Source: Phaeodactylibacter xiamenensis (lineage in GTDB: Bacteria > Bacteroidota > Bacteroidia > Chitinophagales > Saprospiraceae). Taken from it: a stretch of 64,000 bases of DNA. Made by a program: the position numbers and the translations under genes. Each line of letters opens with the position of its first letter. Positions within the stretch are counted from its first letter, which is position 1. Below, piece by piece: positions 7,951 through 57,999 of this stretch. Under the pieces are notes generated by a model, which worked only from the letters and a program-made list of their open reading frames with translations, was not told where the DNA came from and ran no database searches. Location: assembly GCF_000759025.1 (NCBI RefSeq), contig NZ_JPOS01000081.1, forward strand, positions 62,001 through 126,000, written 5' to 3'.

Positions 7951-10900
7951 ATGAAAAAATTTACTTTCCTCCTGTTGTGCCTGATCCCGTTTTGGGGCAT
8001 GGCGCAATCTGAGCCCACAGTGGCTGCCCCTACGCCTACACAGGATGCAGGGGATGTGATTTCTTTGTTTAGCGATGCCTATACAGATGTTCCTGTGAAT
8101 ACGTACGCAGCCCCCTGGAGTGCCGGTATGGTATCAGATGTACAGGTCGATGGCAATGCGGCCAAGCTCTACACAAATCTGGACTTCGCGGGTATCGAAA
8201 TGCTTGACGATAACGCATTAGACCTGGTTGCAACTGGCATGACACACCTACACGTTGATGTATGGACACCGAATGCCACGACTTTCCGCATCAACATGGT
8301 CGACTTTGGTGGAGACGGCTTTGGTGGTGGTAATGACACCAACTTCAACCTGCCGTTTGAGAACTTCACGCAGGGCGAGTGGGTCAGTCTGGATATCCCA
8401 CTGACTGACTTTATGGGTATGAATCAGACGGATGTTTCTCAGTTGGTCCTATCTGCGGTACCGGCTGGCGAGGCTACCATTTACCTGGACAATCTGTTCT
8501 TTTACGCGGGCGTGCTGCCCCCGGCTCAGATGGACCTGCCGGTGACATTCGATGAAGACAACGTGTTGTACAGTACGATTGACTTTGGCGGCACCACTTC
8601 TATGCTGGTTGAAGATCCTGAAAATGCAGGCAATACCGTAGTGCAGACCGTAAAAATGGCTGGCGCTGAAATCTGGGCAGGTACAACCCTGTCTGAAAAC
8701 CTCGGCGGTACGCCCAACGATCCCGGTTTCGCAAGTGCGATCCCTTTCTCCTTTGCGGAAAGCGTAATTTCTGTACGCGTTTGGTCGCCCGTAGCTGATG
8801 TTCCGGTCCGCCTGAAGGTAGAGAACTCCATGGACGCCGGTATTTTTGTGGAAACCGAAGACACCACTACAGTTGCCGGCGCCTGGCAGACGCTGGAGTT
8901 TGAGTTTAAGAATCAGGTAGACGGTACTCCCGCTATCGACTACGCCGCGATGTATGACAAGTTGTCCATCTTCTTCGACTTTGGTACTTCTCCGGCTGCA
9001 GATGCAACCTACTACTGGGACGATGTCATCTTTACCGGCACGACTACTGTTGGCGGTACGACTCCTATGACCGCTGCGCCAACCCCAACTGAAGATCCTG
9101 CCAATGTAATTTCCCTGTTCAGTGATGCCTACACAGACGTACCAGTAAATACCTTCCTGGCGGTGTGGAGCAATGCCGGTTTGGAAGACATCGAAATCGA
9201 AGGCAATCCTACCAAACTGTACACCAACCTGGACTTTGCGGGTATTGAAATGCTGGATGACAATGCCCTTGACCTCGTTGCAGCCGGCATGACCCATCTG
9301 CATGTGGATGTTTGGACACCCAATGCGACGACTTTCCGTGTCAATATGGTCGATTTCGGTGGCGACGGCTTCGGTGGTGGCAATGATACCAACTTCAACC
9401 TGCCGTTTGAGAACTTCACCCCTGGCCAATGGGTCAGCCTGGATATTCCGCTGACGGACTTTATGGGGATGAATCAGACCGATGTTTCTCAGCTTGTGCT
9501 TTCAGCAGTGCCAGCCGGGGCGAGCACCATTTATCTGGATAACCTGTATTTCTACCAGGGCGTTACGCCCCCTGCGCAGATGGATCTGCCGGTGACATTC
9601 GATGAAGACAACGTGCTCTACAGCACAATCGATTTTGGTGGCACTTCCTCTATGCTGGTGGAAGACCCTGAGAACGCAGGCAATACCGTTGTACAGACCG
9701 TAAAAATGGCTGGCGCAGAAATCTGGGCAGGAACGACCCTGTCTGAGAACCTCGGCGGCACGCCAAATGACCCTGGTTTTGCCAGCGCCATCCCATTCTC
9801 CTTCGCAGAAAGTATAATTTCCGTTCGGGTTTGGTCACCGGCAGCTGGTATTCCCGTTCGACTGAAGGTGGAGTCTTCACTGGACGCCGGCATATTTGTA
9901 GAAACCGAAGCCAATACCACCGCAGCCGGAGCATGGCAGACGCTGGAGTTTGAATTTAAGAATCAAGTGGATGGCACACCAGCCATTGATTATGCAGCGA
10001 TGTACGACAAGCTGTCCATCTTCTTCGACTTCGGCACGTCCCCCATGGAGGATGTGACCTACTACTGGGACGATGTCATCTTTACCGGTACGACTACCGG
10101 AAGTCAGGAGCCGATGGTAGCTGCACCAACGCCAACCGAAGACGCTACCAACGTGATTTCCCTGTTCAGCGATGCTTATACGGATGTGCCTGTGAATACT
10201 TTCCTGGCCGTTTGGAGTAATGCAGGACTGGAAGATATCGAAATCGAAGGCAATCCAACGAAACTGTACACCAACCTGGACTTTGCCGGCATTGAGATGC
10301 TGGATGACAACGCCATTGACCTGGTCGCAGCCGAGATGACCCACCTGCACGTGGATGTGTGGACACCAAATGCCACGACTTTCCGGATCAACATGGTCGA
10401 TTTCGGTGGAGACGGCTTCGGTGGTGGTAATGACACCAACTTCGAGATTCCATTTGAGAACTTCACGCTCGGATCATGGGTAAGCCTGGACATTCCTCTA
10501 ACAGACTTTGAGGGCATGAACCAGGATGATGTTTCTCAGCTTGTGCTTTCAGCAGTGCCAGCCGGGGCGAGCACCATTTATCTGGACAACCTGTATTTCT
10601 ACAAGCAGGAAGTACAGACTGGCAACCAAATGGACTTGCCTGTAACCTTTGATGACCCTGAAGTACTGTACAACACTATTGACTTCGGCGGCACATCCTC
10701 TACCATTGTAGAAGATCCGGAAGCTGCAGGCAATATGGTGGTGGAGACCGTGAAGATGGCAGGCGCGGAAACCTGGGCCGGCACTACACTTTCCGAAAAC
10801 CTGGGCGGCACGCCCAACGATCCTGGTTTTGCCTCCGCCATCCCTTTCACGGATGAAGCGACTATCATTTCTGTGCGGGTGTGGTCACCTGCTGCCGATA

Positions 10901-40147: not shown

Positions 40148-41777
40148 TTATTTTCTTTGCAAGACTCTGACCTCATAGGGCGCCAGTTCCTGTTCTGCGC
40201 TGTAGGGTTTGCCGGTCAGAATGTCGGTGTACTTTCCTTTGGGCAGTTCTATAGTTTTGGGCTCAGCAGTGATATTATCGAGAATAAAACCTTCCTGCTT
40301 AATACCTTTTCTGTGCACAACGAGCGGGCCAGCATCTCCTTCGACCAGGGGCTCAATACTTTGTTCTTTAGCATAGTGGCGCAGTAATGGCCCCAAGTGT
40401 CCACGGCCGGGGTCGGTGCCCAACAGCACCACCTTACCCTTGCCCACTGTGTTTTCCATGATGGCCGCTTTCTCAGCGTGCATACCATTGATATAGGCAG
40501 CAATGACCCGGCCATCTTTTGAAGACAAGGCTTCAGACCAAAGCCCGGCCTGCCCTTCCGGTAAGTCCAGAGGACCGTTGTATGTCATTTTCAGGGGAAT
40601 CTCTGCGGGGCGAAGCTTGGTACCCACCGGTATGCGGCTATCGACTGCAATGCCAGACCATTCTGCAATGTCAACCATGGCATGGTCGGTGAAGGAAGTC
40701 CAGTATTCCGTCCGGTAGCCGGTCATGGGCCCGAGGATAAGCGTACCGCCATTTTCCACCCAGGTTTTGAGGTGGGCGCGATGGTCATCGGAAATCATAG
40801 GCAGCAGCGGAAGGTAGAGTAATTTATACCCTTTAAGGTCGGCGCCGGGCATAAGTACGTCCCGGTGTAAGTGTTGATCCTGCAGGGCGAGGTAAAAACG
40901 GTAGGTCCAGTCAGTATAATAGCGGATGTCATTGGCGTACTGCTCTATACGCAGGCCCATATCCGCTTCGTGGTCATAGAAAATACCGATTTTTGCCGGG
41001 GTGACGGGGGCATGGAGCAGGAAATCGCTGCTTTTTTGCAGGTCAGCCCCCAGTTGCTTCAAATCATCATAATTGGCAACCGGCTTGCCCCAGGCATTGA
41101 GGATGGAGCCATGCGGCATTTCCTGCCCGGCCCGGTGCTGCCGCCAAAGCCAGAAGATGGCGCCCTGTCCACCGAGGGCATAGTTCATCCACAGGGCAGT
41201 ATGCATACTGCCATCGGGCTGGTGGAGGAACCAGGTATTTCCTTTGGCGCCACCACCGGAGTTGTTGGGGGCGGTTTCAAAGAGCCAGTGCATCCCTTTT
41301 TAAAATCCCCGCATACGGTCGTAGTTGCTCAGTACCCGGTCGTATGCCTCGAAACTATGGTAATTGTTGACTGCCATGAAATCAAGGTCTTCAAACAGGT
41401 CTTCGTAGTTGGTGGCCTGCCCGGGCATGGAGTCATGCGTGATAGGCCGGTCAGAGTACTGACGGATCGCTGCCAGTTGTATCGCCTGAAAGTTGACTAC
41501 GGACTCGCTTTGGAAGCGCTTCCATGTCATATTCCCCTTCCCTGGGCTCCATTTTGGACCAGGAGAATTCGGCCATTCGGACTACGTTCATGAAAAGCTC
41601 CTTCATGTGTTGTATGTCCTCGGAGACACGTTCCCGGGGCCATGTTTCCGGGTAGTAGGAAGCGCCGTAGTAAATTTTATCTGCAGGAATGGCCTGATCA
41701 TCAGTTTCCTGACCACACAGCAATAAGGGTAGCCCGGCAAAAAGCAGGCTTAGCAGGAGTGAATTGAATTTGAGCAT
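40148..41777 (-). pseudogene. GH42 beta-galactosidase, broken by deletion, frameshift and an in-frame stop
   Basis: The N-terminus has a signal peptide and the GH42 start YYGASYYPETWPRE, then SKMEPREGEYD. At about 41515-41530 the reading frame changes and the sequence jumps to RFQSESVVNFQAIQLAAIR. Compared with the intact-length GH42 at 58005 this skips about 160 codons, including the acid/base Glu region. The frame continues to RMRGF, where TAA (41300-41302) replaces a sense codon before FETAPNNSGGG, which holds the nucleophile Glu. The rest (to 40148) is in the same frame and intact. The gene cannot make an active enzyme. A perfect 14-bp palindrome TGGAAGCGCTTCCA (41511-41524) lies at the deletion junction. 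Confidence 0.88.
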
Positions 41778-41834
41778 TGGTAATTGTTCCTTTTCGCAAA
41801 GGAGGCATTTAGCTGTGCTCCGTAACCAGTAGAC

Positions 41835-42878
41835 TTAGCCGGATTTTCGGAGCCGGGTAGAGTCCCGGCAGATCAATTCCGTATCAAGCACCACTTTCTG
41901 GTGGATGTAGCTGCCGTTCTGGTCGGAATTGATTTCTTCAATCAGTTTTTGCACCGCCAGTTGCCCCATCGCTTTGCTCGGCTGCCGGATAGAGGTGACG
42001 GAAGGCTTCATGAATGCCGAGAAAGGCTCCTCAGAAAACCCGATCACGCCCAACTCTTCAGGCACTTTGAGGCCCAGTTCTTCAGCGCGGGCAATGGTAC
42101 TGATGGCGGTCAGGTTGTTGGCGGTAAAGATGGCATTAGGCGGGTTTTCCAGCGCGAGCAGTTCGTTAGCGATCCGGGTGCCCTCCTCAAAAGAAAGGTT
42201 AGAGCTGTATTTGACCCACTCGTCCTTTAAGGGAAGCCCTGCTTCTTTTACGGCCTGCTGAAAACCTCTTAAGCGGTCGGCATACATGAGCTGTTTGGTC
42301 GGGCCCGACAAATAGGCAATTTTGGTATATCCCTGGTCGATGAGGTGCTGTGTCCCCTCGAATGAGCCCCGGTAGTCATCAACAACAATTTTGGTGATGC
42401 CTTTCAAAGCATTCGTCACCCGGTCTACCAAAACCACTTTAATGCCCTGTTCCATGGCTTTTTCAAAATGCTCAAAGGACTCGGTTTCCAGTGACAGGGT
42501 CGCTACGATGCCGGCTACCCGGCTGGCAATGAGCGTATCCATATAGGTTTTCTCCCGTTCGTAGGAGTTATTGGTTTGGCACACGATGACGGAATAGCCC
42601 ATTTCGAATGCAGTCTCTTCTATATTGTGCACCAGGGACGAGAGGAACTCCCGGTTGAGCTGGGGCACAATCACGCCAATCACCTTGGTCTGATTAGTGG
42701 AGAGGCTGGTGGCCAGGGCATTTTTTTGAAAACCAAGCCTCAAGGCTACAGCCCTTACTTTGGCTTTGGTCTTGGGGCTGATCCGGGCATCATCATTAAG
42801 GGCACGGGAAACAGTAGATATCGAAACACCGGCGGCCTCAGCCACATCGTAGATGTTTATTCTGCTTTTTTTCTTCAT
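41835..42878 (-). CDS. LacI-family transcriptional regulator (copy 1)
   Basis: This is a DNA-binding repressor of 347 residues. The helix-turn-helix is at the N-terminus (INIYDVAEAAGVSISTVSRA), followed by the LacI hinge region and a periplasmic-binding-protein-like sugar sensor (IGVIVPQLNREFLSSLVHNI to the end). The ATG at 42878 starts directly at the KKKSR basic run; longer starts add non-homologous sequence. It is a close paralogue of the next LacI upstream, with the same length and long identical stretches such as FEKAMEQGIKVVLVDRV. A CAAGCGCTTG palindrome, the classic LacI-type half-site arrangement, sits about 135 bases upstream. It is 57 bases upstream of the broken GH42 and could be co-transcribed with GH42-GH10. 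Confidence 0.93.
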   Translation of the reverse strand: MKKKSRINIYDVAEAAGVSISTVSRALNDDARISPKTKAKVRAVALRLGFQKNALATSLSTNQTKVIGVIVPQLNREFLSSLVHNIEETAFEMGYSVIVCQTNNSYEREKTYMDTLIASRVAGIVATLSLETESFEHFEKAMEQGIKVVLVDRVTNALKGITKIVVDDYRGSFEGTQHLIDQGYTKIAYLSGPTKQLMYADRLRGFQQAVKEAGLPLKDEWVKYSSNLSFEEGTRIANELLALENPPNAIFTANNLTAISTIARAEELGLKVPEELGVIGFSEEPFSAFMKPSVTSIRQPSKAMGQLAVQKLIEEINSDQNGSYIHQKVVLDTELICRDSTRLRKSG

Positions 42879-43012
42879 TTTACCGTTTGTTAGAACGTGT
42901 GCCCAATTGGTCAAAACCATGAATTCCGGGCGGCCTTTAGTTCAACGATTCTTTGAACGTGCTTCTGTAAGTATGGTTCCGCAAAATTAATTGATTTTAT
43001 TTAATGAATCTA

Positions 43013-43022
43013 CAAGCGCTTG
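43013..43022. promoter_or_regulatory. LacI-type operator O1 (CAAGCGCTTG)
   Basis: This perfect palindrome with context TACAAGCGCTTGCA lies between the two lacI genes, upstream of copy 1. It is one of three identical 10-bp cores in 1.4 kb. The AAGCGCTT centre fits the general LacI/GalR operator style. Autoregulation is inferred. Confidence 0.7.
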
Positions 43023-43049
43023 CATGGCAGCATTTGGCAAGCAGCGCAA

Positions 43050-44093
43050 TTATCTTTTGCACAGGCGGTTGGTGGATTCCCGGGGGATGAGTTCGGTGTC
43101 CAGGATTATTTTCTGGTGGATGTAGCTTTCACCGGGGTCGGCATTGATTTCTTCGACTAGTTTTTGCACCGCCAGTTTTCCCATTTCCGTACTGGGTTGC
43201 CGTATAGAAGTTACGGAGGGCTGCATAAAGGCAGAAAAAGGCTCCTCTGAGAAACCGATCACCCCGAGATCTTCGGGCACCCTGATGCCGATCTGACGCG
43301 CATAGGCGATCGTGCTAATCGCAGCCAGGTTGTTGGCCGTGAATATTGCATTGGGCTTGTCCTTACGGCTAAGGATTTTTTTGGCGATCCGGGTCCCTTC
43401 TTCATAAGAGAGGTCATCAGAGTATTCTATCCATTCGGGGTTCAGCGGGAGGCCAGCGACTTTCAGTGCTTGTTCAAAACCCCTCAGGCGATCGGCGTAG
43501 AGCAATTGCTTGGTTGGGCCTGAGACGTAGGCTATTTTGTCATACCCCTGCCCGATAATGTGCTGTGTGCCTTCGAAGGCCGTTTGGTAGTCATCGATGA
43601 CAATCTTGGTCGTCGATTTAATTTTTGGTGAAACCCGGTCTACCAGCACCACTTTGATGCCTTGCTCCTTGGCTTTTTCAAAGTGCTCATAGGAGTCGGT
43701 TTCGAGGGAGAGCGTGGCGATAATGCCGGCGACCCGGCTTGCGATGAGGGTATCCATATAGGTTTTCTCCCGTTCATGGGAGTTATTGGTCTGGCAAATG
43801 ATCACCGAGTACCCCATGGCAAAAGCCGTATCCTCAAGGGTGTGTACGAGAGAGGAAAGAAAGCCGCGGTTCAGTTCCGAAACCAGAACGCCAATCACTT
43901 TGGACTGATTGGTCGACAAACTGGTTGCAATCGCATTTTTCTGAAAGCCAAGCCTCCTGGCTGCAGCTTTTACCTTGACTTTTGTTTTGGCACTGATACG
44001 GGCATCGTCGTTCAGGGCGCGGGACACAGTAGAGATAGAAAAACCGGCCTCTTCTGCGACATCATAAATATTTACCCTGGTTTTCTTTTTCAT
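43050..44093 (-). CDS. LacI-family transcriptional regulator (copy 2)
   Basis: This second LacI-type repressor also has 347 residues, with helix-turn-helix VNIYDVAEEAGFSISTVSRA and a ligand-binding domain beginning IGVLVSELNRGFLSSLVHTL. It is strongly similar to copy 1 across its length, so the pair arose by tandem duplication and has since diverged in the sensor part. Nearly identical DNA-recognition helices suggest both read the same operator, while different ligand pockets could respond to different sugars. An operator copy lies 149 bases upstream of its ATG, in the region shared with the divergent sigma-factor gene. Confidence 0.93.
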   Translation of the reverse strand: MKKKTRVNIYDVAEEAGFSISTVSRALNDDARISAKTKVKVKAAARRLGFQKNAIATSLSTNQSKVIGVLVSELNRGFLSSLVHTLEDTAFAMGYSVIICQTNNSHEREKTYMDTLIASRVAGIIATLSLETDSYEHFEKAKEQGIKVVLVDRVSPKIKSTTKIVIDDYQTAFEGTQHIIGQGYDKIAYVSGPTKQLLYADRLRGFEQALKVAGLPLNPEWIEYSDDLSYEEGTRIAKKILSRKDKPNAIFTANNLAAISTIAYARQIGIRVPEDLGVIGFSEEPFSAFMQPSVTSIRQPSTEMGKLAVQKLVEEINADPGESYIHQKIILDTELIPRESTNRLCKR

Positions 44094-44241
44094 CGGGCTG
44101 CTGATTTGAGCGTGAAGCTGCTTCGCCGAAATCAGGGATGCCCAATCATAATTCCGGCGAGGCCTCGGTTAAAAAATACCTTTCTTTTTTAACGGTAAAC
44201 TATGGATTTGCAAAAATAGAGCAATTTTGTTGATAATTTAT

Positions 44242-44251
44242 CAAGCGCTTG
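44242..44251. promoter_or_regulatory. LacI-type operator O2 (CAAGCGCTTG)
   Basis: This is the second perfect copy, in context TATCAAGCGCTTGCGC. It lies nearer the lacI copy 2 start and could mediate its autoregulation. Confidence 0.7.
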
Positions 44252-44368
44252 CGCCAGTGCGCACTGCAAAAGTAGAAACGATGATTTATATCTTATTTTA
44301 TTGGATTTATCGACCGAAAAACCAAAGTTATAATTGTTCAAAGATTTTTCAACAAATAAAAAGTTGTA

Positions 44369-44378
44369 CAAGCGCTTG
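44369..44378. promoter_or_regulatory. LacI-type operator O3 (CAAGCGCTTG) overlapping the sigma-factor promoter
   Basis: This is the third perfect copy, in context TGTACAAGCGCTTGCATA, extended on both sides as in O1. Its last three bases are the TTG that would serve as the -33 element of the sigma-factor promoter, so bound repressor should block RNA polymerase. Confidence 0.72.
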
Positions 44379-44406
44379 CATAAGTAAAAGCAGATTGCTA
44401 GATTTA
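44376..44406 (+). promoter_or_regulatory. Candidate Bacteroidota promoter of the sigma-factor gene
   Basis: TTG (44376-44378), a 20-base spacer and TAGATTTA (44399-44406, seven of the eight positions of TAnnTTTG counting the free ones) match the known Bacteroidota housekeeping promoter layout. The start codon lies about 67 bases beyond. The -33 part is embedded in operator O3. Confidence 0.5.
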
Positions 44407-44473: not shown

Positions 44474-45070
44474 ATGGAAAACCAGAACCCGTCCAACGTC
44501 CATCAAAAAAACTGGCAAGCCTATTTGAATGGCAATGATCAGGCCTTCGAGAATTTATATATGGCTTTTGCCGATCGTTTGTACATCTATGGTTCCAATC
44601 TCACCATAGACAAAGCATTGGTGGAAGATGCCATTCAGGAAATCTTCTGCAAATTGTACCAGAGAGACAAAGACCTGATCGAGGTCAAAAATATCCGGAG
44701 TTATTTGTTTGTAGCGCTGCGCAATCATATCCGGAAAAGCCTGAGCACGGACCGCAACCACGAGGAACACCAAAAGCGGTATCAGGCTATGCAGCCGCTG
44801 AGCGAAGAGGTGCCGACGCCCTCGATGGGTTGCGAGGGGCAACCGCTACAGGCGCATGTACGCCGGGCTATTGATGATCTGCCTCCGCGTCAAAAAGAGG
44901 TGCTTTGCCTCCGCTTCTTCGAAGGCTTCGATTACTACGAGATTTCCGATATCATGAAAATCTCCTATCAGGTAGCCCGCAACTATGCTTCCCGTGGAAT
45001 GAAGCGCCTGAGGGCGGACTTGTTCACAGACCCAAAAGTGCAGTATAAAAGTGTAGTCATGGCGGTTTAA
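44474..45070 (+). CDS. ECF-type RNA polymerase sigma-70 factor
   Basis: This 198-residue alternative sigma factor has region 2 (AFENLYMAFADRLYIYG, then DAIQEIFCKLYQR) and region 4 (DLPPRQKEVLCLRFFEGFDY with helix-turn-helix EISDIMKISYQVARNYASR). In Bacteroidota such sigma factors sit with a FecR-type anti-sigma and a SusC/TonB receptor. Here a short FecR-like fragment and a susC follow. I chose the ATG at 44474; a GTG at 44435 in frame would add 13 residues without homology. Its promoter overlaps a LacI-type operator, so the local repressors probably gate the whole downstream PUL. Confidence 0.9.
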   Translation: MENQNPSNVHQKNWQAYLNGNDQAFENLYMAFADRLYIYGSNLTIDKALVEDAIQEIFCKLYQRDKDLIEVKNIRSYLFVALRNHIRKSLSTDRNHEEHQKRYQAMQPLSEEVPTPSMGCEGQPLQAHVRRAIDDLPPRQKEVLCLRFFEGFDYYEISDIMKISYQVARNYASRGMKRLRADLFTDPKVQYKSVVMAV

Positions 45071-45204: not shown

Positions 45205-45456
45205 ATGACCAAAAAGCATTCCACACCGCTGACTGCTGAACAGTTGCTGAATGACGACCAGTTCGTCAGGACTGTTTTGGAAAGCCGTTCCTCAGTCGCA
45301 ACCTATCATCAAACCCATCTCCGGCAATTTGGAGATGTTGCAGATGTTGTTGAGGATGCCAGGAGCGCAATACTGAGCATGCAGCGACATTTCCAGGCAA
45401 AGTCACCTTCACAAAAAACATTAGCCACAATATTGGAAAAGATTCGGTCAAGCTGA
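45205..45456 (+). CDS. Small FecR-like N-terminal (anti-sigma) domain protein
   Basis: This 83-residue protein has no signal or membrane segment. The pattern LLNDDQFVRTVLESRSSVAT, a middle helix near VEDARSAILSMQ and the C-terminal ATILEKIRSS resemble the cytoplasmic N-terminal domain of FecR-type anti-sigma factors, which binds the sigma factor. The usual transmembrane helix and periplasmic domain are absent, and only 53 bases remain before susC. It has a reasonable Shine-Dalgarno (GAAAGG) and lies between sigma factor and susC, the FecR position. It could be a soluble mini anti-sigma or the stub left by a deletion. The assignment rests on pattern and position, so I hold it loosely. Confidence 0.6.
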   Translation: MTKKHSTPLTAEQLLNDDQFVRTVLESRSSVATYHQTHLRQFGDVADVVEDARSAILSMQRHFQAKSPSQKTLATILEKIRSS

Positions 45457-45509: not shown

Positions 45510-48500
45510 ATGAAAAGCTTTACACTCCCATTGCTATGCCTGATGCTAGTCTTCAGTGCAGGAGCAGTACACGCTAGAGGGGACGCTGCTCCCGGGGCCA
45601 ACCCCGGGGCGGAATCCCTCTCCAAATTTATTCCTGAAGATGACGTGAAAGTACAAGGTGTGGTCACCGACGATGCCGGTGAGCCCCTTATCGGCGTAAA
45701 CGTCCTTGAAAAAGGCAATCCGACCAATGGTACCATCACAGATGTGGATGGCGCCTTCCAGCTTACCGTTGCCGACGATAATGCCACCTTAGTATTCACC
45801 TACATTGGTTACCAGAAAAAAGAAATGCCCCTGAATGGGTAAACCAATGTCAGTGTAACCCTCAAGACAAGCGCTTCCGTATTGGATGAGGTGGTTGTGG
45901 TGGGTTATGGTACGCAGGTCAAGCGGGACATGCTTGGTGCGGTATCCTCTATTGAAGGCAAAGAGCTTACCGCTTTCAGTGCGACTTCCATGGACCAATC
46001 CTTACAAGGACTTGCAGCCGGTGTTCAGGTAACCGGTAGCTCTGGTGTGCCAGGTGCGCCTACCCGTGTACTGATTCGGGGTACCAACTCCCTGTTTTCA
46101 GGTACGGAACCCTTGTGGATTATCGATGGTATGATCCTAAGTGGTCAGGGTGGTGGCGAAATCGGTGGCTTCGGTCGGAACGCTGGTGGTGCAGTAGGAC
46201 TGAACCCCCTTGCTACAATTAACCCTAACGATATTGAGTCTGTTGAAGTCCTTAAGGATGCAGCTGCGACAGCGGTTTACGGTTCTCGTGGTGCAAACGG
46301 CGTAATCATCGTTACGACCAAATCGGGTAAGGGTGGAAAAGGGACACTAGACCTGAATGTGAACTACGGTATTTCTGACGTGGTACGCGGACCCAATGAA
46401 ATAGGTTTCGTGGATGGTCCTACCTGGCTGGCGCTAGCTGATGAATCCCGTTTGAATGCAGGTCTTGCCGAATTCGATCCAAACGAAGTTCTGGTTTCAG
46501 GCCGTGATCCTAATGCCGTTCTAACGCGTGATCAGCTCGCCGATGTCAACTACTTTGACGAAGTGCTTCGGCAGGGTTCTTCAACAGATATAAACCTTTC
46601 TTCTTCACGGGCTACCGAAAATCTGAATTACTATATTTCTGGTAACTACCGTAGAGATGAAAGTATATTGGTAGGAGATTTGATGGAGCGGATGTCATTG
46701 CGTTCCAACTTTGATTTCAAGCCCCTAGAAAACCTCAGCATAGGCACCCGTCTACAGCTCAGCTATGTAAATCGGGAACGGGCAGCAAACGGTGGTGCTC
46801 CGGGTGGAAATGCCAACGTCGGCAATGGAGGTTATAACTTTGCTAATACTGGAATTATTCCAATTCTTCCTTTATTCCATCCGACAGTAACGGGTCGTAA
46901 CGGTAACCCGATCTTGTTTGATCCGCTTTCCGGACGTAATGTACTGGCTAACCTTGACCGGGCAAACTACATCAATGATCAAGATACTTATCGTGCTATT
47001 GCCGGTGTGAACCTGCAATACAATATCCCATTTGTTCAGGGGTTGTCTATCCGGTCAGAACTGGCAGCAGATTTTCTACATGCTAGTAACATCGAATGGG
47101 CCAATACAGTCATCCGCGAGGATAGTAAGTATGGATTTGACAATGCTCAGACGTTCCAGCGAATCAACTATAAGTTATGATCGTCAATTCGGTCGCCTAC
47201 ACGCTATCAACCTTACGGCTGGTACGGAATCTACTTCAGAAGGGTAGCGCCGCCGTAATATCGAGGCGCAGCAGCTTTTCGGAACGCAGCAGGAGTTGAA
47301 TCAGCCAGGCGATGTACAGCGTGTTACTGCAGGCTTCGGCGGAGAACAGTACTTCCGTGGCTACTTTGGCCGGCTGAACTATAAGTTCATGGATCGCTAT
47401 ATGATTGGGGCAAGCTATCGCTACGACGGCTCCTCCATCTTTACGGAAGACTTCCGCTGGGGTAACTTCCTGGCCCTTTCTGCAGGCTGGGTGGTCTCTG
47501 ACGAGCCCTTCCTGGTTAATAATGAAGTCATCAACTTCCTGAAGTTCCGCGGTAGCTTTGGTCAGACGGGCAACTCTGCCATTAATCCGCAAGCTACCGC
47601 TACAACTTATGCACAATGGGGCCGTTACGGTGATACTGGTGCGGGTGACCTGCTCAGCACAATCGCTAATACAGCCGTAACTTGGGAAACCACAGATGCT
47701 TATGATGTAGGCGCTGACTTTGAGCTCTTCGAAGGGCGGATAAGCGGTACGGTAAGTTACTACGTGCAGGACGTACGTGATATGCTCTTCCAGGTTCCAA
47801 TCCCTCAATCATCCGGTATTTTCAATAGTAATCCTACTATATGGGACAACGTAGGTGATATGCAAAACCGAGGCTGGGAAGTGGAGCTGAACACCGTAAA
47901 TATTGACCGCGGTAATTTCCAGTGGAGAATGGGCATCAACTTCGCTACGAATGAAAATCAGGTGACCCGCCTGGCCGGGGAAGATGCAGAGATAGTTAAT
48001 GTTAACAACAACGGTCTAGTTACCCGCGAGGGCGATCAGGTCGGATTTTTCCGTTTAGCCCGTTATGCTGGTATACATCCCGAAGGAGGCTATGAGCTGA
48101 TTGAGGAAATGGACCTGGAGTTATTTGCAGAAACAGGTGAGCGTGTAGCAACTGGCAACTTAATCCCTGCCACCCGTGCCAATCTTTCTACTCACTTATT
48201 TGATAATACCGATAGAGGTAGTTTGCCGACCTTCTTTGGTGGTTTTAACAACAGCTTCACCTACAAGAATTTCAGTTTGAGCGCTTTGATCAGCTTCTCC
48301 GGTGGCAACTACATTTATGATGTAGCCCGGGAGAACTCCGTCTATGTGAATAGTGCTAAGCCTTACCGCGAAGAAATTGTAGGTAACTACTGGCAGAATC
48401 CCGGTGATGATGCTGAGTTCCCGGCACTAAGCTGGAATCAGCGCTACGATGTGATTAACGAAGATGGAACGATTGAAGAAAACGTACGTTTTGATCCACA

Positions 48501-48720
48501 ACGTTCCGGTCATGCGCATGATAAGTACTTACAGAAAGGGGACTTTATCCGTATGCGAGCGCTGTCCTTTTTCTACAACCTGCCACGTGGTGTAGCAGAT
48601 TCTTTGCGTATGCAGAACATTCGCCTTGGATTTACAGTTAACAACCTGTTCACTATTACCGGATACGAAGGCTATGACCCCGAGGTAGTTAATCTGGGTG
48701 ATGGCCTTGGTGGCTCCAGT
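45510..48720 (+). pseudogene. susC: susC remnant (TonB-dependent transporter) with stops and frameshift
   Basis: A SusC-type transporter can be followed from a signal peptide (ending VHARG), through the regulatory-like domain (VQGVVTDDAGEPLIGVNVLE), signature DEVVVVGYGTQVKRDMLGAV, plug (GSRGANGVIIVTTKSGKG) and barrel to GYEGYDPEVVNLGDGL. It is interrupted by TAA at 45840-45842 (expected Gln before TNVSV), a frame change near 47165-47180 (FQRINYKL in one frame continues as ISYDRQFGRLHAINL in another) and TAG at 47245-47247. The C-terminal strand is missing: the reading frame runs straight into SusD-like sequence. As written it cannot make a working transporter. Confidence 0.88.
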
Positions 48721-49215
48721 AACTGGAAGCACCCGCGCCGCTTCGCCTGGTACAATGCAAACCGTGAGCGTACAACTGGATTGGAGGACAACGGTGGTAG
48801 ATTTATAGTTTGCAGTGATGCCTTCCTGGAAGCCGCAGGCTGGCAAAACCCTGATGGTACAGAAAGTGCAGATGCCGCCAATGATTTACGGTATCAGCAG
48901 TTGTTCATAAGGGTTCCAGCGGGTGAAGATCCTCGTGGTCAGTTCTCAACTACCCGTGACTATGTCTGGAATGATAAGTATTACAGAGCGGGCGACCGTG
49001 AGACTAACCTGCCTGTACTCCGCCTCGCAGATATCGTGTTGCTCCGTGCGTTCCTGCGTGCGGATTCAGGCGACAACGGTGGTGCACGCGCTGACCTGAA
49101 TATGGTTCGCAACCGCGCTGGTACGGAATGTGTACTGCAATTTCGCACTAACGTATTCCACCCACGGCTATTCTGGGTAGACTTGACTGTCTCGGCGTAC
49201 GAGCCTTATTCTTGA
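48720..49215 (+). pseudogene. susD: susD remnant fused in frame to the susC remnant
   Basis: From about 48720 the frame reads RRFAWYNANRERTTG, VWNDKYYRAGDRETNLPVLR and ADIVLLRAFLRADSGDNGGA, which is the late part of a SusD protein (compare the C-terminal region of the SusD at 3155-4627). The SusD start, signal, N-terminal signature and TPR region are absent, as is the expected ERRLEL...GHR segment after NMVRNRAG. The last 30 residues match nothing I recognise. A deletion of roughly 1 kb or more joining susC to susD is the simplest explanation. The exact junction cannot be fixed by eye. Confidence 0.75.
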
Positions 49216-49425: not shown

Positions 49426-52400
49426 ATGAAATCCTGTTTGTCTGGTGGTTTGGGCTTCCTCATTACCCTGCTCCTGCTTTCCGGATGTGAAAACGCTGAG
49501 CCTTCAGAGGCCGGAGAGCAAGCTGCTACCGACGACACTACCGAATTCGTCTCCCTGACCTCAGACCAAACCGGCATCGACTTCGCTAACAACCTGCCGG
49601 AAGATGCCTACCGCAACATCATGCGCTATCAGTACTTCTACAACGGGGGTGGCGTTGCCATCGGCGATGTGAACGGGGACGGGCTGCCGGATGTGTGCTT
49701 TTCTTCCAATACCGGAGCGCCCCGCCTTTACCTCAATCAGGGAGAGCTGAAATTCCGCGAAGCCAAAAACGCCGGGCTCGACCTGCCTGCCAAAGCCACC
49801 TGGAATACCGGCCTTAGCATGGTGGATGTCAACGGAGACGACCACCTAGATATTTACCTCTGCCGATCGGGCAACCTACAGCTGGCCAATCGCATGAACC
49901 TACTCTACATCAACAAGGGGGACGGTACCTTCAAGGAGCGGGCTGCCCTGTTTGGGCTGAACGACCCGGGCTACTCCGTGCAGGCCAACTTCTTTGATTA
50001 CGATAAGGATGGTGATCTCGATATGTACCTCGCCAACCACGGCATCAACTTTTACGGGCGCGACCCACAGGGCAAGGTTTCCAATGCCCCTGATCAGTAC
50101 TCGGGCGATAAGCTTTACCGCAACGACGGCGACCGCTTTACCAACGTCACCAAAGAAGCCGGTATTTTGGAGCAGGCATACAGTTATGGGCTGGGTGTTG
50201 GCATCGGTGACCTGAATCAGGATGGCTGGGACGATATTTACGTGTCCAATGACTTCTTTGAGCACGATTACCTGTACTGGAATCAGGGCGATGGCACTTT
50301 CCGGGAAAGTATAAAGACTGCTGCCCGTCAGACTTCCTACTTCGGCATGGGCAATACGAATACCGATTTGAATAACGACCAACTGCTAGATATCATGGTG
50401 GTGGATATGACTGCTGAGGACCACTACCGCCGCCACGCCAACCTCGCCGGGCTGAGCTACGAAAAGTTCTGGGACTTCGTGGACAAGGGCTATCACTACC
50501 AGTACATGTTCAACAGCCTGAATATCAACAATGGCAATGCCACTTTCAGCAATCAGGCGCAGCTGGCGGGCATCGCTCAGACCGACTGGAGCTGGGCACC
50601 GCTGGCAGCCGATTTCAATAACGATGGTCTGACCGACCTCTACATCACCAACGGGCTGCGCAAGGATGTCCTCAATCTGGATTTCATCAACAATATCGAC
50701 AAGCGCTTCGCCAAATACATCGGTGCCAACGGGCAACTCCCGGAAGACCGCTTCGTGGAAATGCTGCAGACCATGCCTTCCGAAAAAGTGGGCAACTTCT
50801 TCTACCGAAACGAGGGCGATTTGCAATTTACAGATGTCCGGGAGCAGTGGGGCGCAAACACCCCTTCCTTCTCTACCGGGGCCGCTTATGTCGACCTCGA
50901 TCAGGACGGCGATCTTGATCTTGTCGTCAACAACATCGACGCCCCCGCTTTTGTCTTCGAAAACCAAAAGACCGAAGGCCCCTTCCTGCGCATTGAACTG
51001 CAGGGGCAGGGCAGGAATAAATTTGGCTGGGGCGCCAAAGTCCGGGTTACTTCCGGTGAGGCCACGCAATTGCAGCAGCAGTATCCCATCTGCGGGTATC
51101 AGTCTTCCGTGGAGCCGGTATTGCACTTTGGGTTGCCCGCTGATGCCCCGGTAAGGGTAGAGGTGGAATGGGCCGATGGGAAAGTCATCATTTTAGAAAA
51201 TGTACAACCCAATCAAACCCTGCAAATCGATCAAAAATCAGCAGGAACCGCATCTCCAGCTCCCGCACCACCGGCTACAGCTTTTGAACCCGGACCCGAC
51301 CTCAACCAAAAACACACCGAAAACGATTTCAACGACTTCAAACGGGAATTTCTCCTGCCCCACAAAATGTCCGCCCTTGGGCCCAACCTCGCCGTTACTG
51401 ATGTCAATGGCGATGGGCTGCACGACTATTTCCTGGGCGGTGCCAAGGGGCTGCCCGCTTCTCTCCATCTGCAAAAACCAGATGGTACTTTCCAGCAGGT
51501 ACGCAACCCCTGGCTCGACGAGCGCCTGCACGAGGACGGTGGCGCTGCCTTTTTTGACGCAGACGGGGATCAGGATATGGACCTCTACGTTGCCTCCGGT
51601 GGCAATGAATACGAGATCGGCTCCAAATACTATCAGGACCGGTTATACCTGAATGACGGAGAGGGCGCATTCACGCGCGCTGCTGATGCACTACCTGATC
51701 TTCGCAGCAGCAATGGCCCGGTCGCCGCTGCGGACTACGATGGCGATGGCGATGTCGATTTATTTGTAGGTGGACGGCAAACGCCCGGTGCCTATCCAAC
51801 CGGCACTCAGAGCTACCTCCTGCAAAACGATGGTCAGGGGCGCTTTACAGATGTTACCCCACAACTCGCTCCGGAAGGATTGACCGGCATGGTGACCGAT
51901 GCCCTGTGGACCGACTTCAACGGCGATGAGCAACCTGATCTCATCGTAGTCGGAGCCTGGATGACGCCCCGTTTTTTCAGCCAATCCGATGGTGCTTTCA
52001 AAGAGGTGATCGCTTCCACCGGGCTGGAGAATATCAGCGGCTGGTACTTTAGTTTGGATGGTGCCGACTTTGATGGGGATGGCGATACCGACTATGTCTT
52101 GGGCAACCTCGGGCTCAACCACCGCTTCAAAGCCACGCCTGAAGCCCCCTTTGCCATCTACGCTGCTGATTTTGATGAGAATGGCACCTTGGACATGGTT
52201 CCAACCTACTATTACGAAGGTAAAGAATACCCCCTCTACGGGCGGAGCGTGATGCAGGATCAGCTGGTCAGCGTGAAAAAAGCCTATCCATCCTATACCG
52301 ACTACGCCCGTGCCACGGTGCAGGACATCTTCACGGCCCCGGCATTGGCGAAAGCCCAAAAAGCAGAAGCCCAAACCTTTGCCAGCCTTTACCTCGAAAA

Positions 52401-53921: not shown

Positions 53922-55770
53922 ATGAAAAACGTTTGCCAATACTGGATATTTGCATTGTTGTTATGTAGCAGCGTGTTTCAGAGCACCGCACAGGAAGGCA
54001 TTCTGCTGGAAGCCGAAAGCTTTCTGTACCCCGGTGGCTGGGTGGTCGACCCCCAGTTCGTGCAGCAAATGGGTTCACCCTACCTGATGGCGCACGGCAT
54101 GGGGCAGCCGGTGGACCCGGCAAAAACTGCAGTTAAAATCGATAAAGCAGGGACTTATAATGTCTGGGCAGGTACCAAAAATTGGGCGCCTGGCAATTGG
54201 GCACCACCCGGTCAATTCCTTCTAAAAGTAAACGGCGAGGCTCTGCCTGACACACTGGGGAGAAACCCCGGCTGGGGCTGGGCGTACGCTGGCAAAGCCA
54301 AACTTCAAGCCGGGACTGCCAACCTTGAGCTGGTCGACCTGACCGGCTTCAACGGTCGCTGCGATGCCATATTCCTGAGCCAGGGAGAGGTGCCGCCGCC
54401 CGACTACGGCAAAAAGCTAGCCGAATGGCGCCGCCAAATGCATCAGGAACCTTTGGCTCCGGAAAGGGAGAAATCCTATGACCTGGTGGTAACCGGTGGG
54501 GGCATTGCGGGTTGTGCGGCTGCCATTGGCGCAGCCGAGCAAGGTTTAAAAGTTGCCCTGATTCACGATCGCCCCGTGTTGGGTGGAAATGCCAGCAGCG
54601 AAATCCGGGTGCACACCCTCGGGATTTACGGAAAATTCGAACGCATACTTCGCCTGCTGGATACCGAGCACTACCCGAATGGCTCTGCGGAAGCCAAAAA
54701 AGATCAGGAGAAGCGGGACAAAAACGTCAAAGCCTATAAAAATATCGACCTCTTTCTCAACTGGCGTGCCTATGATGCCGTATCCGAAGACAGCACCATT
54801 CAGTACGTGGACGCCCGGCATACTGCAACGAATGAAAGAATGCGATTCGGTGCCCCCTTATTTGTCGATGCCACGGGCGATGGCTGGATTGGCTACTGGG
54901 CGGGGGCGGAGTATTCCTACGGACGGGAAAGCGTCAACAAATACGGTGAAGAATGGGACGAGTGGGGCGAACTGTGGAGCCCGGAAGAAGCTGACAATTT
55001 TGTCATGGGCTCTTCCATACTCTGGCAAACCCATCAGGGAGAGGAGGCGACCGACTTCCCCCAACAGCCCTGGGCTGTTGCCGTTGCACGGGAACACAAG
55101 GCTACAGCCGGGGAGTGGTACTGGGAATTCTCCCGCAATGACTTGCACCAAATCGAAGATGGAGAAGAAATCCGCGATCACCTGCTGAAAGCCATTTACG
55201 GTTCCTTTGCCAATGCCAAGGCACTCCCGGAAAACAGCCACTATCAGCTGACCTGGGTGTCCTATCTGCTGGGGAAACGGGAATCCCGCCGGTTGCTGGG
55301 CGATCATATTTTCACTTTTCAGGATGTGGTCAATAATACCCCCTTCCCAGACTCCGTGGTAATGGAAGACCGGGCCGTAGACGTCCATTATCAGCGTAAC
55401 CTGAGGGACGAAGAGAAGCCGGATTTTCTATCCGAAGCTCTTTTTTACCGGACCGACCGGTACTACATTCCCTACCGGAGTTTGTACTCCAGAAATATAG
55501 ACAACCTGTTTATGGCTGGCCGCTGCTTTAGCTGTTCTCACATTGGGCTGGGCAGTCCCCGTGTTATGCGGACCACCGGGCAAATGGGCGCGGCTGTTGC
55601 CCCAGTATCATTTGATGACCCAAAATCAGCTAAAGGCCTATTTGTCTTTCTGGGAAGACCGGAAACTGCCGGCGGATGTCCGGAATCAATTGACCGAAGC
55701 GAGCCACAATCCAAATTACCCCTACGCCTATCTCATCGAACGATTTTTAGAAGCTCAGAAGACGCCTTAA
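53922..55770 (+). pseudogene. FAD-dependent oxidoreductase, frameshifted near its 3' end
   Basis: After a signal peptide (to about residue 22) comes a beta-rich golvesin-like domain (about 25-150, AGTYNVWAGTKNW, then FNGRCDAIFLSQ). An FAD Rossmann domain begins YDLVVTGGGIAGCAAAIGAA (near 185) and continues to NLFMAGRCFSCSHIGLGSPR, the usual FAD C-terminal motif. After MRTTGQMGAAV (about 55600) the frame changes: sensible protein continues in another frame as YHLMTQNQLKAYLSFWEDR and stops at 55770, seven bases before the next start. The original frame runs on to 55877 through implausible sequence and overlaps the next gene. A small deletion with loss of the FAD-closing segment is likely. The first 560 residues look intact, so residual function is not excluded. 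Confidence 0.75.
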
Positions 55771-55776
55771 ACAATT

Positions 55777-57999
55777 ATGACGAAATCAATCCTACTCAGC
55801 TTATGCCTGCTAATTGCAGTGGGCAGCCTACTGCCTGCACAGTCCGCCGTTTGGTCCGTAGACAGCTACCCCGATGAGCCCGGGCTGCAAATGCGCATGG
55901 CCCCTATGCTGCCCCGGATCGCTGCCGAAGGCTTTGCCAAACGCAGCCTGGCCAACTCCAAATGCCCGGACACCGGGCTGCCGCTAAAAACCTGGGCGGT
56001 AAAGGGCGAAACGATTTACTCGCCTTATACCGGCAGGGCCTATCAGCAGGGAGATACCGGCTACTTCGGCCCAAAGGCACGCAATGAAGAGGGTGAAATT
56101 TCTGCCTTCGGTGGCGACCCCCTGAAATACGAATTACAATCGGCTACGGCGCAGCTGCTGCTCCATCCTGGTGATGCACTTGCCCGCGGATTTCTAAGCA
56201 TTCCCGGCAATCTCCGGCAGCAGTACCACTTTGCCTGCAACAACTGGGCGCGGTTCTATCCGTACCTGGCTGACGAAATGGGGGAGGACTGGAAAGCCCG
56301 ATTCCATGATGCAGTAGCGGACTATGAGGAAACACGCCGTCCTTCCGATGGCAACCGGGAGTATGCACCGATGAGCCATCCCCATGATTTGGTAGGAGAG
56401 GAGGGGACTTTGCTCGGCGGCAATACCATTGAAGGAGGGACGGAAAACCACAAAACCATGTGGCGCACATCCTGCCTGGTGTACAGCCAATGGATGCCCG
56501 AAGGGGCCAAAATTTCCGGTTACGATTTGCCGGAAGCAGAGACGAGGGTGCGGGCTTTTCTCACCGAATACGCCGAACGCATGTTGCAAACCGGTAACGG
56601 AGAGTACGACTCCCAGATTTATTACCCCTATTCCATCGAAGGGTATATGAACCTTTACGATTTTGCCAAAAAGCCGGAGGACCGGGCATTGGCGAAATTC
56701 ACCCTCGACTACTACTTCGCCACCACTGCCCTGAAGCTGGTAGACGGGCATATCGCTGGTGGGATGAAGCGTGGCTATTTGCCGAAAGGCGAGCCCGACA
56801 AAATGGAAAAGCTGTTCTGGGGCTATTTTGATGACGTCAGCCGCGATATGTCGGAAGCGGTGACCACCGTGCATCAGGCCACAACGCGCTACTGGCCCAA
56901 TACCATTATTTCGAAGATTGCACGAGGAGAAGTAGCATTGCCCTACGAGGCCCGAATGCCCCGCCCGTTCTACCACATGGACCGTAAAAATGGTTTTCAG
57001 GAGTCCTTCTACCGGTCGAACACCTTCGGGTTGGGCAATGTGTACATGAGCATCGTCGACAACCCCAATCAGCAGATGGTCTGGTCCCTCATGGTGGAAG
57101 GGGAGGACGACCCGCTGGGCTTTACCGGTGGTCAGCCGCTGCGGTTGACGACCTCCGGGCACAGCCCGTACACGCAGACCCTGCACAGCAAAAACACCCT
57201 CCTTCTCCTGTCCGCTCCATCCGAATTGGATGAAAAACAGCATCCGGAATTTAATATTTCTGATAAGCGGATCAACCCCTGGCATCTGCCCGATAGCGCA
57301 CAGGCCCGTGAGTTTGAGCTGGCCAACCGCTGGAAGTACGCCACGGAGCCCTTACAACCGGTAAGCCCACCCGCTGAAGATGAATTGGAAGCCTTTTGGG
57401 AGCAAAAGAAATACAGCGCTGCCTCCTGGCTGCTCATCCCCAAACAAGTGGAGCTGGTCAAGGAAACCGACCGGCAGCTGATTTGGAAAGCCCCGAATAC
57501 CTGGGTGGCGGTCTGGCCCATAGGTACTGATTACTTTATGATTGACGCCTCTGCTGAAGCCATTGCCAAGGTGGAGGACAAAACCTGGTGAAGCGTACTG
57601 GAACAGTACATCGTCCTGGTCGTCACGGGGCAGCAGTCCGGGTACGCTTTGGAGGTGCTGGAAGGAGCCGGCCATCCGGATTTGAACGCCGTGCTGGCGA
57701 GCCTGAAAACTGCTGATTTGGAAACTCAGGGGCTCAAAAAGAACAAGACCCTCACTTACCAATCCACACTAGGCGAAAAGCTGGAAATGACCTACCGCCC
57801 TGACCGCCTGAAAGCCTACGGGCGCATTGATGGCACGCCTTTGGATTTTGAGAACTGGGCAGGGGGCGCTGTGTATGAAAGCCCCTACCTTCGCGTCAAA
57901 GACGGTGTAATGGACGTGGAAGACGGCACCGAAGGCTACTGGGTGTTTTTCCGGGACGGACAGCCCGTTTACGAATTACTGAACGAGAAAAACGACTAA
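55777..57999 (+). pseudogene. Unassigned secreted protein, probable alpha/alpha-toroid, with an in-frame TGA
   Basis: This is a 740-codon reading frame interrupted by TGA at codon 605 (57589-57591); the same frame continues to 57999. A signal peptide (1-22, ending LPAQS) is clear. Residues about 120-400 are alpha-helical with LGGNTIEGGTENHKTMWRTS, QIYYPYSIEGYMNLYDFA and YWPNTIISKIARGE, resembling alpha/alpha-toroid lyases or hydrolases. Residues about 400-740 look beta-rich (GFQESFYRSNTFGLGNVYMS), like the sandwich that follows such toroids. I do not recognise the family. The polypeptide up to the stop keeps the entire helical part. Next to GH29 and GH42, and with kduI/kduD in the window, a polysaccharide lyase is a fair hypothesis. 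Confidence 0.65.

Follow-up and report, generated by a model that had tools for sequence, protein, structure and literature searches.

Predicted LacI operators at a tandem repressor pair and at an ECF sigma gene with a FecR stub in Phaeodactylibacter xiamenensis

The window analysed here, a stretch of 64,000 nucleotides from Phaeodactylibacter xiamenensis, contains the palindrome CAAGCGCTTG three times, twice upstream of tandem lacI genes (O1 and O2) and once upstream of a gene for an ECF sigma factor (O3). The reading we favour, with modest confidence, is that O1–O3 are the operators of a local, autoregulated pair of LacI repressors that gates the sigma factor, whose FecR partner is a stub. 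The observations behind this reading are the sites and their positions, their confinement in the genome at up to one mismatch, the architectures of homologous loci, the homology of the stub, and the broken state of susC. The features, with dN/dS values calculated against the sister species (G002), are:

41835..42878, minus strand: lacI A, LacI-family regulator of 347 aa (identified by Pfam; dN/dS 0.093)
43013..43022, no strand assigned: O1, predicted LacI-type operator CAAGCGCTTG, 134 bp upstream of the lacI A ATG
43050..44093, minus strand: lacI B, LacI-family regulator of 347 aa, 77% identical to LacI A (identified by Pfam and alignment)
44242..44251, no strand assigned: O2, predicted LacI-type operator CAAGCGCTTG, 148 bp upstream of the lacI B ATG
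44369..44378, no strand assigned: O3, predicted LacI-type operator CAAGCGCTTG, 95 bp upstream of the sigma ATG
44474..45070, plus strand: ECF sigma factor of 198 aa with sigma70 regions 2 and 4 (dN/dS 0.047)
45205..45456, plus strand: FecR stub of 83 aa, N-terminal part only (identified by hhalign to FecR homologues; same length in G002)
45510..48700, plus strand: broken susC, with two stops (the first, in frame, ending at 45842; the second near 47245), a frameshift between 47180 and 47296, and a junction with susD at about 48700 produced by a deletion
48700..49215, plus strand: remnant of susD (C-terminal part), its frame continuous with that of the susC barrel piece

The window contains exactly three copies of CAAGCGCTTG, as the original prediction had it, and this is beyond chance: dinucleotide shuffles of the window gave a mean of 0.17 copies, and none of 100 shuffles reached three. 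Matches with up to two mismatches are at chance level in the window (35 observed vs 36 expected). A search of the whole 7.87-Mb assembly (164 contigs), which had been suggested as a check, found eight exact copies, compared with one for a reversed-pattern control. The palindrome is thus not frequent away from glycan genes in this genome; all five copies beyond the window (L001–L004 and L013) lie within ORFs, called mechanically and 151 to 813 aa long, one of which is rpoC-like by eye. When the search is widened to places no more than one mismatch from the 12-mer GCAAGCGCTTGC, from which O3 itself differs at one base, the genome holds 36, of which 33 are outside the window. One of the 33 is the rpoC-like exact copy; among the 32 others, all examined, 30 fall within ORFs (mechanically called, 100 aa or longer) and the remaining two between genes. 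Both intergenic places are without a central CG: GCAAGAGCTTGC, 48 bp before an rpoN-like gene (L191:1501), and GCAAGCCCTTGC, which precedes a dnaA-like gene (L210:1501), the genes being named by eye. O1, O2 and O3 are therefore the only intergenic, CG-centred places in the genome within one mismatch of GCAAGCGCTTGC, and the visible regulon of the LacI pair consists of the pair itself and the sigma operon. The same one-mismatch 12-mer search of the genome yielded nothing convincing by way of a wider regulon.

Palindromes with a central CG that lie upstream of their own lacI gene have the hallmarks of LacI/GalR-family operators, and O1 and O2 are predicted operators in this sense. According to passages of a large survey of LacI-family transcription factors, 72% are autoregulated, and their sites usually have a central CG and in more than 75% of cases lie 30–140 bp upstream (PMC4052901). 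Relatives within the window's family were compared through 43 available LacI upstream regions (up to 300 bp each), a set that leaves out the lacI pairs of the window and of G002 and the fragment in G004. A perfect CAANCGNTTG occurs in 20 of the 43, in the variant forms CAATCGATTG (16 regions), CAAACGTTTG (3), CAAGCGCTTG (1) and CAACCGGTTG (0), and every other perfect 10-bp palindrome is limited to three of them or fewer. Judged by this context, CAAGCGCTTG behaves as a predicted LacI-type operator, and O1–O3, taken as LacI operators, would be ordinary.

Outside the genus, the closest LacI homologues are found in G251 (49% identity) and G106 (45%). Both genomes have GCAAGCGCTTGC upstream of a Gfo/Idh/MocA gene, which is the next gene in G106 and one gene away in G251; no CAANCGNTTG-type site precedes lacI itself in the available flank of either. 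Exact CAAGCGCTTG copies number four in G251 and three in G106; of the copies examined, each genome has one within an ORF, and G251 has one further copy that is intergenic and away from LacI. In the genome of a relative, G019, CAAGCGCTTG is found 24 times (control 0), and one copy lies 65 bp before a LacI gene (L033), which may point to a larger LacI regulon. The conserved serine of the recognition helix is preceded by P, S or A in the 16 CAATCGATTG cases (one of them read by eye), whereas in the CAAGCGCTTG cases (the window, G251, G106 and L033) the preceding residue is I, L or E. Passages on the LacI family describe a recognition code resting mainly on two such residues (PMC2978694). Since the CAAACGTTTG cases are mixed in this respect (A, I and V), the recognition pair is a tendency and not a clean code; thus, L028 has the same pair (I, S), yet CAAACGTTTG stands upstream.

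The operators are placed 20–23 bp before boxes resembling the −7 element, that is, each at or just upstream of an expected −33 element:

42982..42989, minus strand: candidate −7 box TAATTTTG of lacI A, exact, 23 bp after the CTTG half of O1
44211..44218, minus strand: candidate −7 box TATTTTTG of lacI B, exact, 23 bp after the CTTG half of O2
44399..44406, plus strand: candidate −7 box TAGATTTA of the sigma gene, imperfect (one mismatch), 20 bp after the CTTG of O3

Only three of the 311 CTTG occurrences in the window are followed by an exact box at 17–23 bp. The original prediction drew attention to O3 and overlooked that O1 and O2 share its placement toward the lacI genes, with spacers of 23 bp as against 20 bp for O3. 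Three exact −7 boxes read toward lacI B, two further ones starting at 44267 and 44323. O3 was said to supply the −33 TTG of the sigma promoter; a CTTG does lie at the appropriate distance upstream of TAGATTTA, but the box is imperfect. It also carries a G at −10, a base whose occurrence there in F. johnsoniae promoters is described as 'virtually zero' in a passage of PMC6847099; in F. johnsoniae, according to part of another report, the −33 motif was not identified (PMC7366714). The mismatch and the G at −10 make the sigma promoter a weak call. If an alternative box with one mismatch, TATAATTG at 44329, were used, O3 would be downstream of the start. A sigma promoter overlapping O3 is, in our opinion, plausible.

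Under the favoured reading, the repressors would, without inducer, occupy the −33 regions of the lacI A, lacI B and sigma promoters, or the DNA just upstream, and this occupancy would keep the operon of sigma, FecR stub and SusC/D off. A cytoplasmic sugar would free the repressors, and the ECF sigma factor would be made. It would then be without its usual surface control, FecR being reduced to an N-terminal fragment like those that make E. coli FecI constitutive, and LacI-controlled transcription would be what still gates it. In this scheme we infer that the repressors bind and repress, that an inducer releases them, that the promoters are used as described and that sigma is constitutively active in the presence of the stub.

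The sigma factor has Pfam matches above cut-off to PF04542, PF08281 and PF04545. The stub has no Pfam match of its own and, in an hhalign comparison (probability 83, E 9e-6), aligns co-linearly with residues 4–82 of FecR homologues from G065 and G019, which accompany homologues of the sigma factor, are full length (340 and 339 aa, respectively) and contain FecR and FecR_C domains. The transmembrane and periplasmic parts of FecR, which trans-envelope signalling would require, are absent from the window locus. Relative to G002, the stub has a dN/dS of 0.285, calculated from 26 changes, and is less constrained than the sigma factor (0.047) and lacI A (0.093). In passages of a study of the E. coli system, FecR fragments 1–59, 1–61, 1–65, 1–68 and 1–116 are reported to give citrate-independent FecI activity, fragment 1–85 to give constitutive FecA synthesis, and Fur to repress fecIR (PMC9249621). 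By analogy with these activating fragments, which the stub resembles, the sigma factor would be active once made, so that LacI would be the gate that remains. No LacI was found beside the sigma homologues of G065 and G019 in the stretches examined. The G019 homologue (L096, gene at 10160), which has the full FecR, is preceded by GAAAACGATTGC, one mismatch from GCAANCGNTTGC by eye; such a site before a sigma gene that has no adjacent LacI would count against a simple story in which the operator was gained at the window locus.

The output of the operon is broken. In addition to the stops and frameshift given above, a deletion of about 1.07 kb, as measured against G002, has joined the end of susC to the C-terminal part of SusD, and the window thus lacks the intact susC and susD of a functional SusCD polysaccharide-utilization locus. 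The SusC of G002 lacks the part that matches window positions 45705–47337, and its N-terminal and barrel pieces are out of frame, as judged from coordinates; its SusD reads open over 515 codons. A close intact SusC was not found at any other place in the window's genome, where the most similar one is 41% identical. The CarboxypepD-like domain starts at residue 48 in the window SusC, compared with residues 142 and 162 in G065 and G019; the N-terminal extension of these homologues, which has no Pfam match and was assigned to STN by eye, is therefore absent from the window. The surviving pieces are strongly constrained (dN/dS vs G002 0.036 for the SusC barrel and 0.074 for the SusD C-terminal piece), which indicates that the loss is recent.

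The proposal that the repressors act through the sigma factor stands in part: the sole non-self target seen for them is an operon that begins with sigma, so any wider effect would have to run through it, but the SusC output is broken in both species. With the transporter recently broken in this genome and in its sister, the switch may drive little, or may drive other sigma targets.

Several other differences between the sister genomes deserve mention. A stretch of about 467 bp that G002 and G004 both have is missing from the GH42-like gene (window 40148–41800). A candidate palindrome, GAAGCGCTTC at 41513, was dropped, being inside the longer GH42-like reading in G004 and absent from G002. The alignment with G002 has a 6-bp overlap at the GH42-like junction, and likewise at the SusC–SusD deletion. 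Two stretches of the window, 51261–52260 (about 1 kb) and 54823–57133 (about 2.3 kb), are absent from the matching place in G002. G004 is the sole other contig of the genus found to carry lacI A, and it ends inside that gene.

Between positions 42583 and 44484, the window and G002 are 99.2% identical (15 differences in 1902 bp); just outside this tract, identity falls to 83% in the adjoining part of lacI A and 85% in sigma. The tract spans lacI B, O1–O3 and the N-terminal 28% of lacI A, and was likely exchanged between the two species in recent times. Across lacI B, DNA identity is 99.6%, with one residue different. In G002, O1 is altered at one base, O2 at two and O3 not at all; the operators account for three of the 15 differences, all in O1 and O2 (P about 0.001 over the tract, 0.018 when only noncoding bases are considered). 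This excess is the opposite of what purifying selection would be expected to leave. The CTTG halves and the −7 boxes are kept in G002. It follows that the autoregulatory sites differ between the species and the sigma site is common to both.

These observations bear on the strongest alternative, that of a decaying polysaccharide-utilization locus in which the repressors still work on old operators and the sigma factor and its operon have lost their job, so that the arrangement is a relic and not a two-tier switch. SusC is broken in two species by different lesions and SusD is broken in the window, the neighbouring GH42-like gene is shortened, O1 and O2 differ in G002, and no close intact SusC copy was found in the genome. 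On the other hand, lacI A, lacI B and sigma are all intact, and constraint on sigma, lacI A, the SusC barrel and the SusD C-terminal piece is strong enough to make any decay recent. We regard the relic as unlikely, though it is the alternative to be taken most seriously.

Other loci in which lacI adjoins an ECF sigma gene argue for the gate. At five other such loci within the family, GCAANCGNTTGC is found before lacI and at or before sigma in every case (5/5), all sites being exact but for a single mismatch in the G003 site before lacI. A larger set of 60 ECF-sigma loci was assembled from the best 30 of a family search and the best 30 of a phylum search, ranked by similarity to two LacI-linked sigma factors; it thus comprises neither all matches nor a random sample. 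LacI lies within about 1.5 kb of available flank at 14 of the 60 (L123, L125–L134, L145, L153 and L155, of which L153 and L155 are outside the window's family). An operator with at most one mismatch is present at the sigma gene in 9 of these 14 linked loci vs 1 of the 46 unlinked (Fisher 1.2e-6). Among loci with 1 kb or more of sequence after sigma, a single tblastn query found FecR at 1 of 11 linked vs 32 of 45 unlinked (Fisher 2.6e-4); L123, L127 and L145 (linked) and L137 (unlinked), in which the sequence ends less than 300 bp after sigma, were left out of this count and kept for that of operators. The family set alone gives the same direction, with operators at 7 of 12 linked vs 1 of 18 unlinked sigma genes (0.0025) and FecR at 0 of 9 vs 9 of 17 (0.009). 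Since related loci are not independent and FecR detection was crude, the P values given here make the association look stronger than it is; its direction is clear. Of the linked loci, five have no site at sigma; at these, an operator with 0 or 1 mismatch is found at lacI itself, with sigma following at a distance of no more than about 200 bp. Both exceptions were counted: L155, a linked locus of the phylum sample, has FecR, and L124, an unlinked locus of the family sample, has an operator. Sigma factors of this kind, gated by LacI and poor in FecR, look like a recurrent variant that would be analogous to Fur-gated FecI. The position of O3 near the sigma start fits the linked arrangement, with the 83-aa FecR stub still present beside sigma. 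The window sigma is 26% identical to the LacI-linked sigma of G003 and belongs to a different subgroup; its link to LacI was therefore probably a separate event.

The same survey weighs on a second alternative, according to which O2 and O3 control lacI B by looping, O3 being an auxiliary autoregulatory site and sigma no true target. The DNA helix has 10.5 bp per turn, and the centres of O2 and O3, 127 bp apart, are separated by about 12 helical turns, which is near integral; moreover, three exact −7 boxes read toward lacI B. However, it is O3 that is common to G002 and O2 that is altered there, and LacI-linked sigma genes elsewhere have an operator of their own in 9 of 14 cases. We consider looping without a sigma target to be quite improbable.

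The tandem paralogues of the original prediction are real genes, both on the minus strand, with Pfam matches to PF00356, PF13377 and PF00532 above cut-off that correspond to a LacI helix-turn-helix and to sugar-binding or periplasmic-binding-like domains. Their heads are identical at 51 of 61 positions, and residues 19–30, which cover the recognition helix, do not differ. The genome has five genes with a LacI helix-turn-helix. Another of these (L103:6758, G000:C39) has CAATCGATTG upstream and a divergent TonB-dependent-receptor-like gene. A scan of named genomes for relatives of the LacI pair returned one locus, in the sister MAG. In G002, lacI A (L043:16280–17323) is B-like in its middle by eye, which suggests exchange between the tandem copies. 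The further claim, that the operators are shared by two repressors whose different sensors integrate two sugars, can draw on both copies being intact in two species and on sensor halves that differ at 73 of 287 aligned columns, but we reject it as unsupported and very improbable, since the sensor halves are 75% identical (214/287) and the mid-protein likeness of G002 lacI A to lacI B is as expected after exchange between copies.

The original prediction also called this regulation atypical of SusC/SusD loci. That is fair with respect to the three types of regulator named for Bacteroides polysaccharide-utilization loci in passages of PMC3878776, namely SusR-like, hybrid two-component and ECF sigma/anti-sigma; it is less so in view of the lacI-linked ECF sigma genes at 14 of 60 similarity-chosen loci. 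For uronate use, regulators of LacI type are predicted in Bacteroides as well, according to a passage of the same paper (PMC3878776). No description of a LacI-gated ECF sigma factor was found in the search results and passages covered; a text search for the palindrome brought up nothing apparent on LacI regulation in the titles and the beginnings of abstracts among the papers listed, and a search of the Phaeodactylibacter literature nothing relevant. The novelty is the proposed sigma-factor gate with a cut-down anti-sigma factor and not the LacI operators themselves.

A broader reading may be offered tentatively, as one that could well prove wrong: ECF sigma factors of Bacteroidota may have been moved repeatedly, by way of LacI, from surface sensing to cytoplasmic sugar sensing, and the window may capture such a conversion midway. 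The marks of a midway state would be a FecR cut to the kind of fragment that activates sigma, the loss of the SusC extension, and the presence of a LacI operator where sigma has its promoter. If so, a LacI-gated ECF sigma factor without a working anti-sigma factor would constitute a further route of control, in which sugars are sensed inside the cell and not at its surface. It would, in addition, show one layer of regulation giving way to another in nature, together with a natural FecR truncation resembling those constructed in E. coli. The comparison of linked and unlinked loci predicts that, wherever an ECF sigma gene has lacI as its neighbour, sigma or the lacI–sigma pair will be preceded by a LacI operator and FecR will usually be missing.

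Among known systems, the local regulons of LacI/GalR regulators, as described in passages of PMC4052901, share with the window a palindrome with central CG, predicted autoregulation and adjacency to genes of sugar use, the window sites being 95–148 bp upstream; unlike them, the window has a sigma operon as the sole non-self target seen, and its repressor is duplicated in tandem. The Fur–FecI–FecR–FecA system of E. coli, as given in passages of PMC9249621, is similar in that a cytoplasmic repressor gates an ECF sigma factor serving a TonB-dependent receptor. It differs in that the repressor of the window is of LacI type and not Fur, FecR is an 83-aa stub, and the receptor is broken and without the N-terminal extension of its homologues. 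The Bacteroides arrangement of ECF sigma, anti-sigma and SusC (passages of PMC3878776) is matched by the window order of sigma, FecR-like gene, SusC and SusD remnant, and the sigma homologue loci of G065 and G019 have sigma, full FecR and SusC; in contrast, the window has no transmembrane or periplasmic FecR and has a LacI-type operator at sigma. Finally, the loci in which lacI neighbours an ECF sigma gene (G003, G023, G119, G383, G327 and others) resemble the window in having LacI-type operators before lacI and often before sigma, and differ from it in the sigma subgroup (26% identity) and in having FecR beside only 1 of the 11 with sufficient flank.
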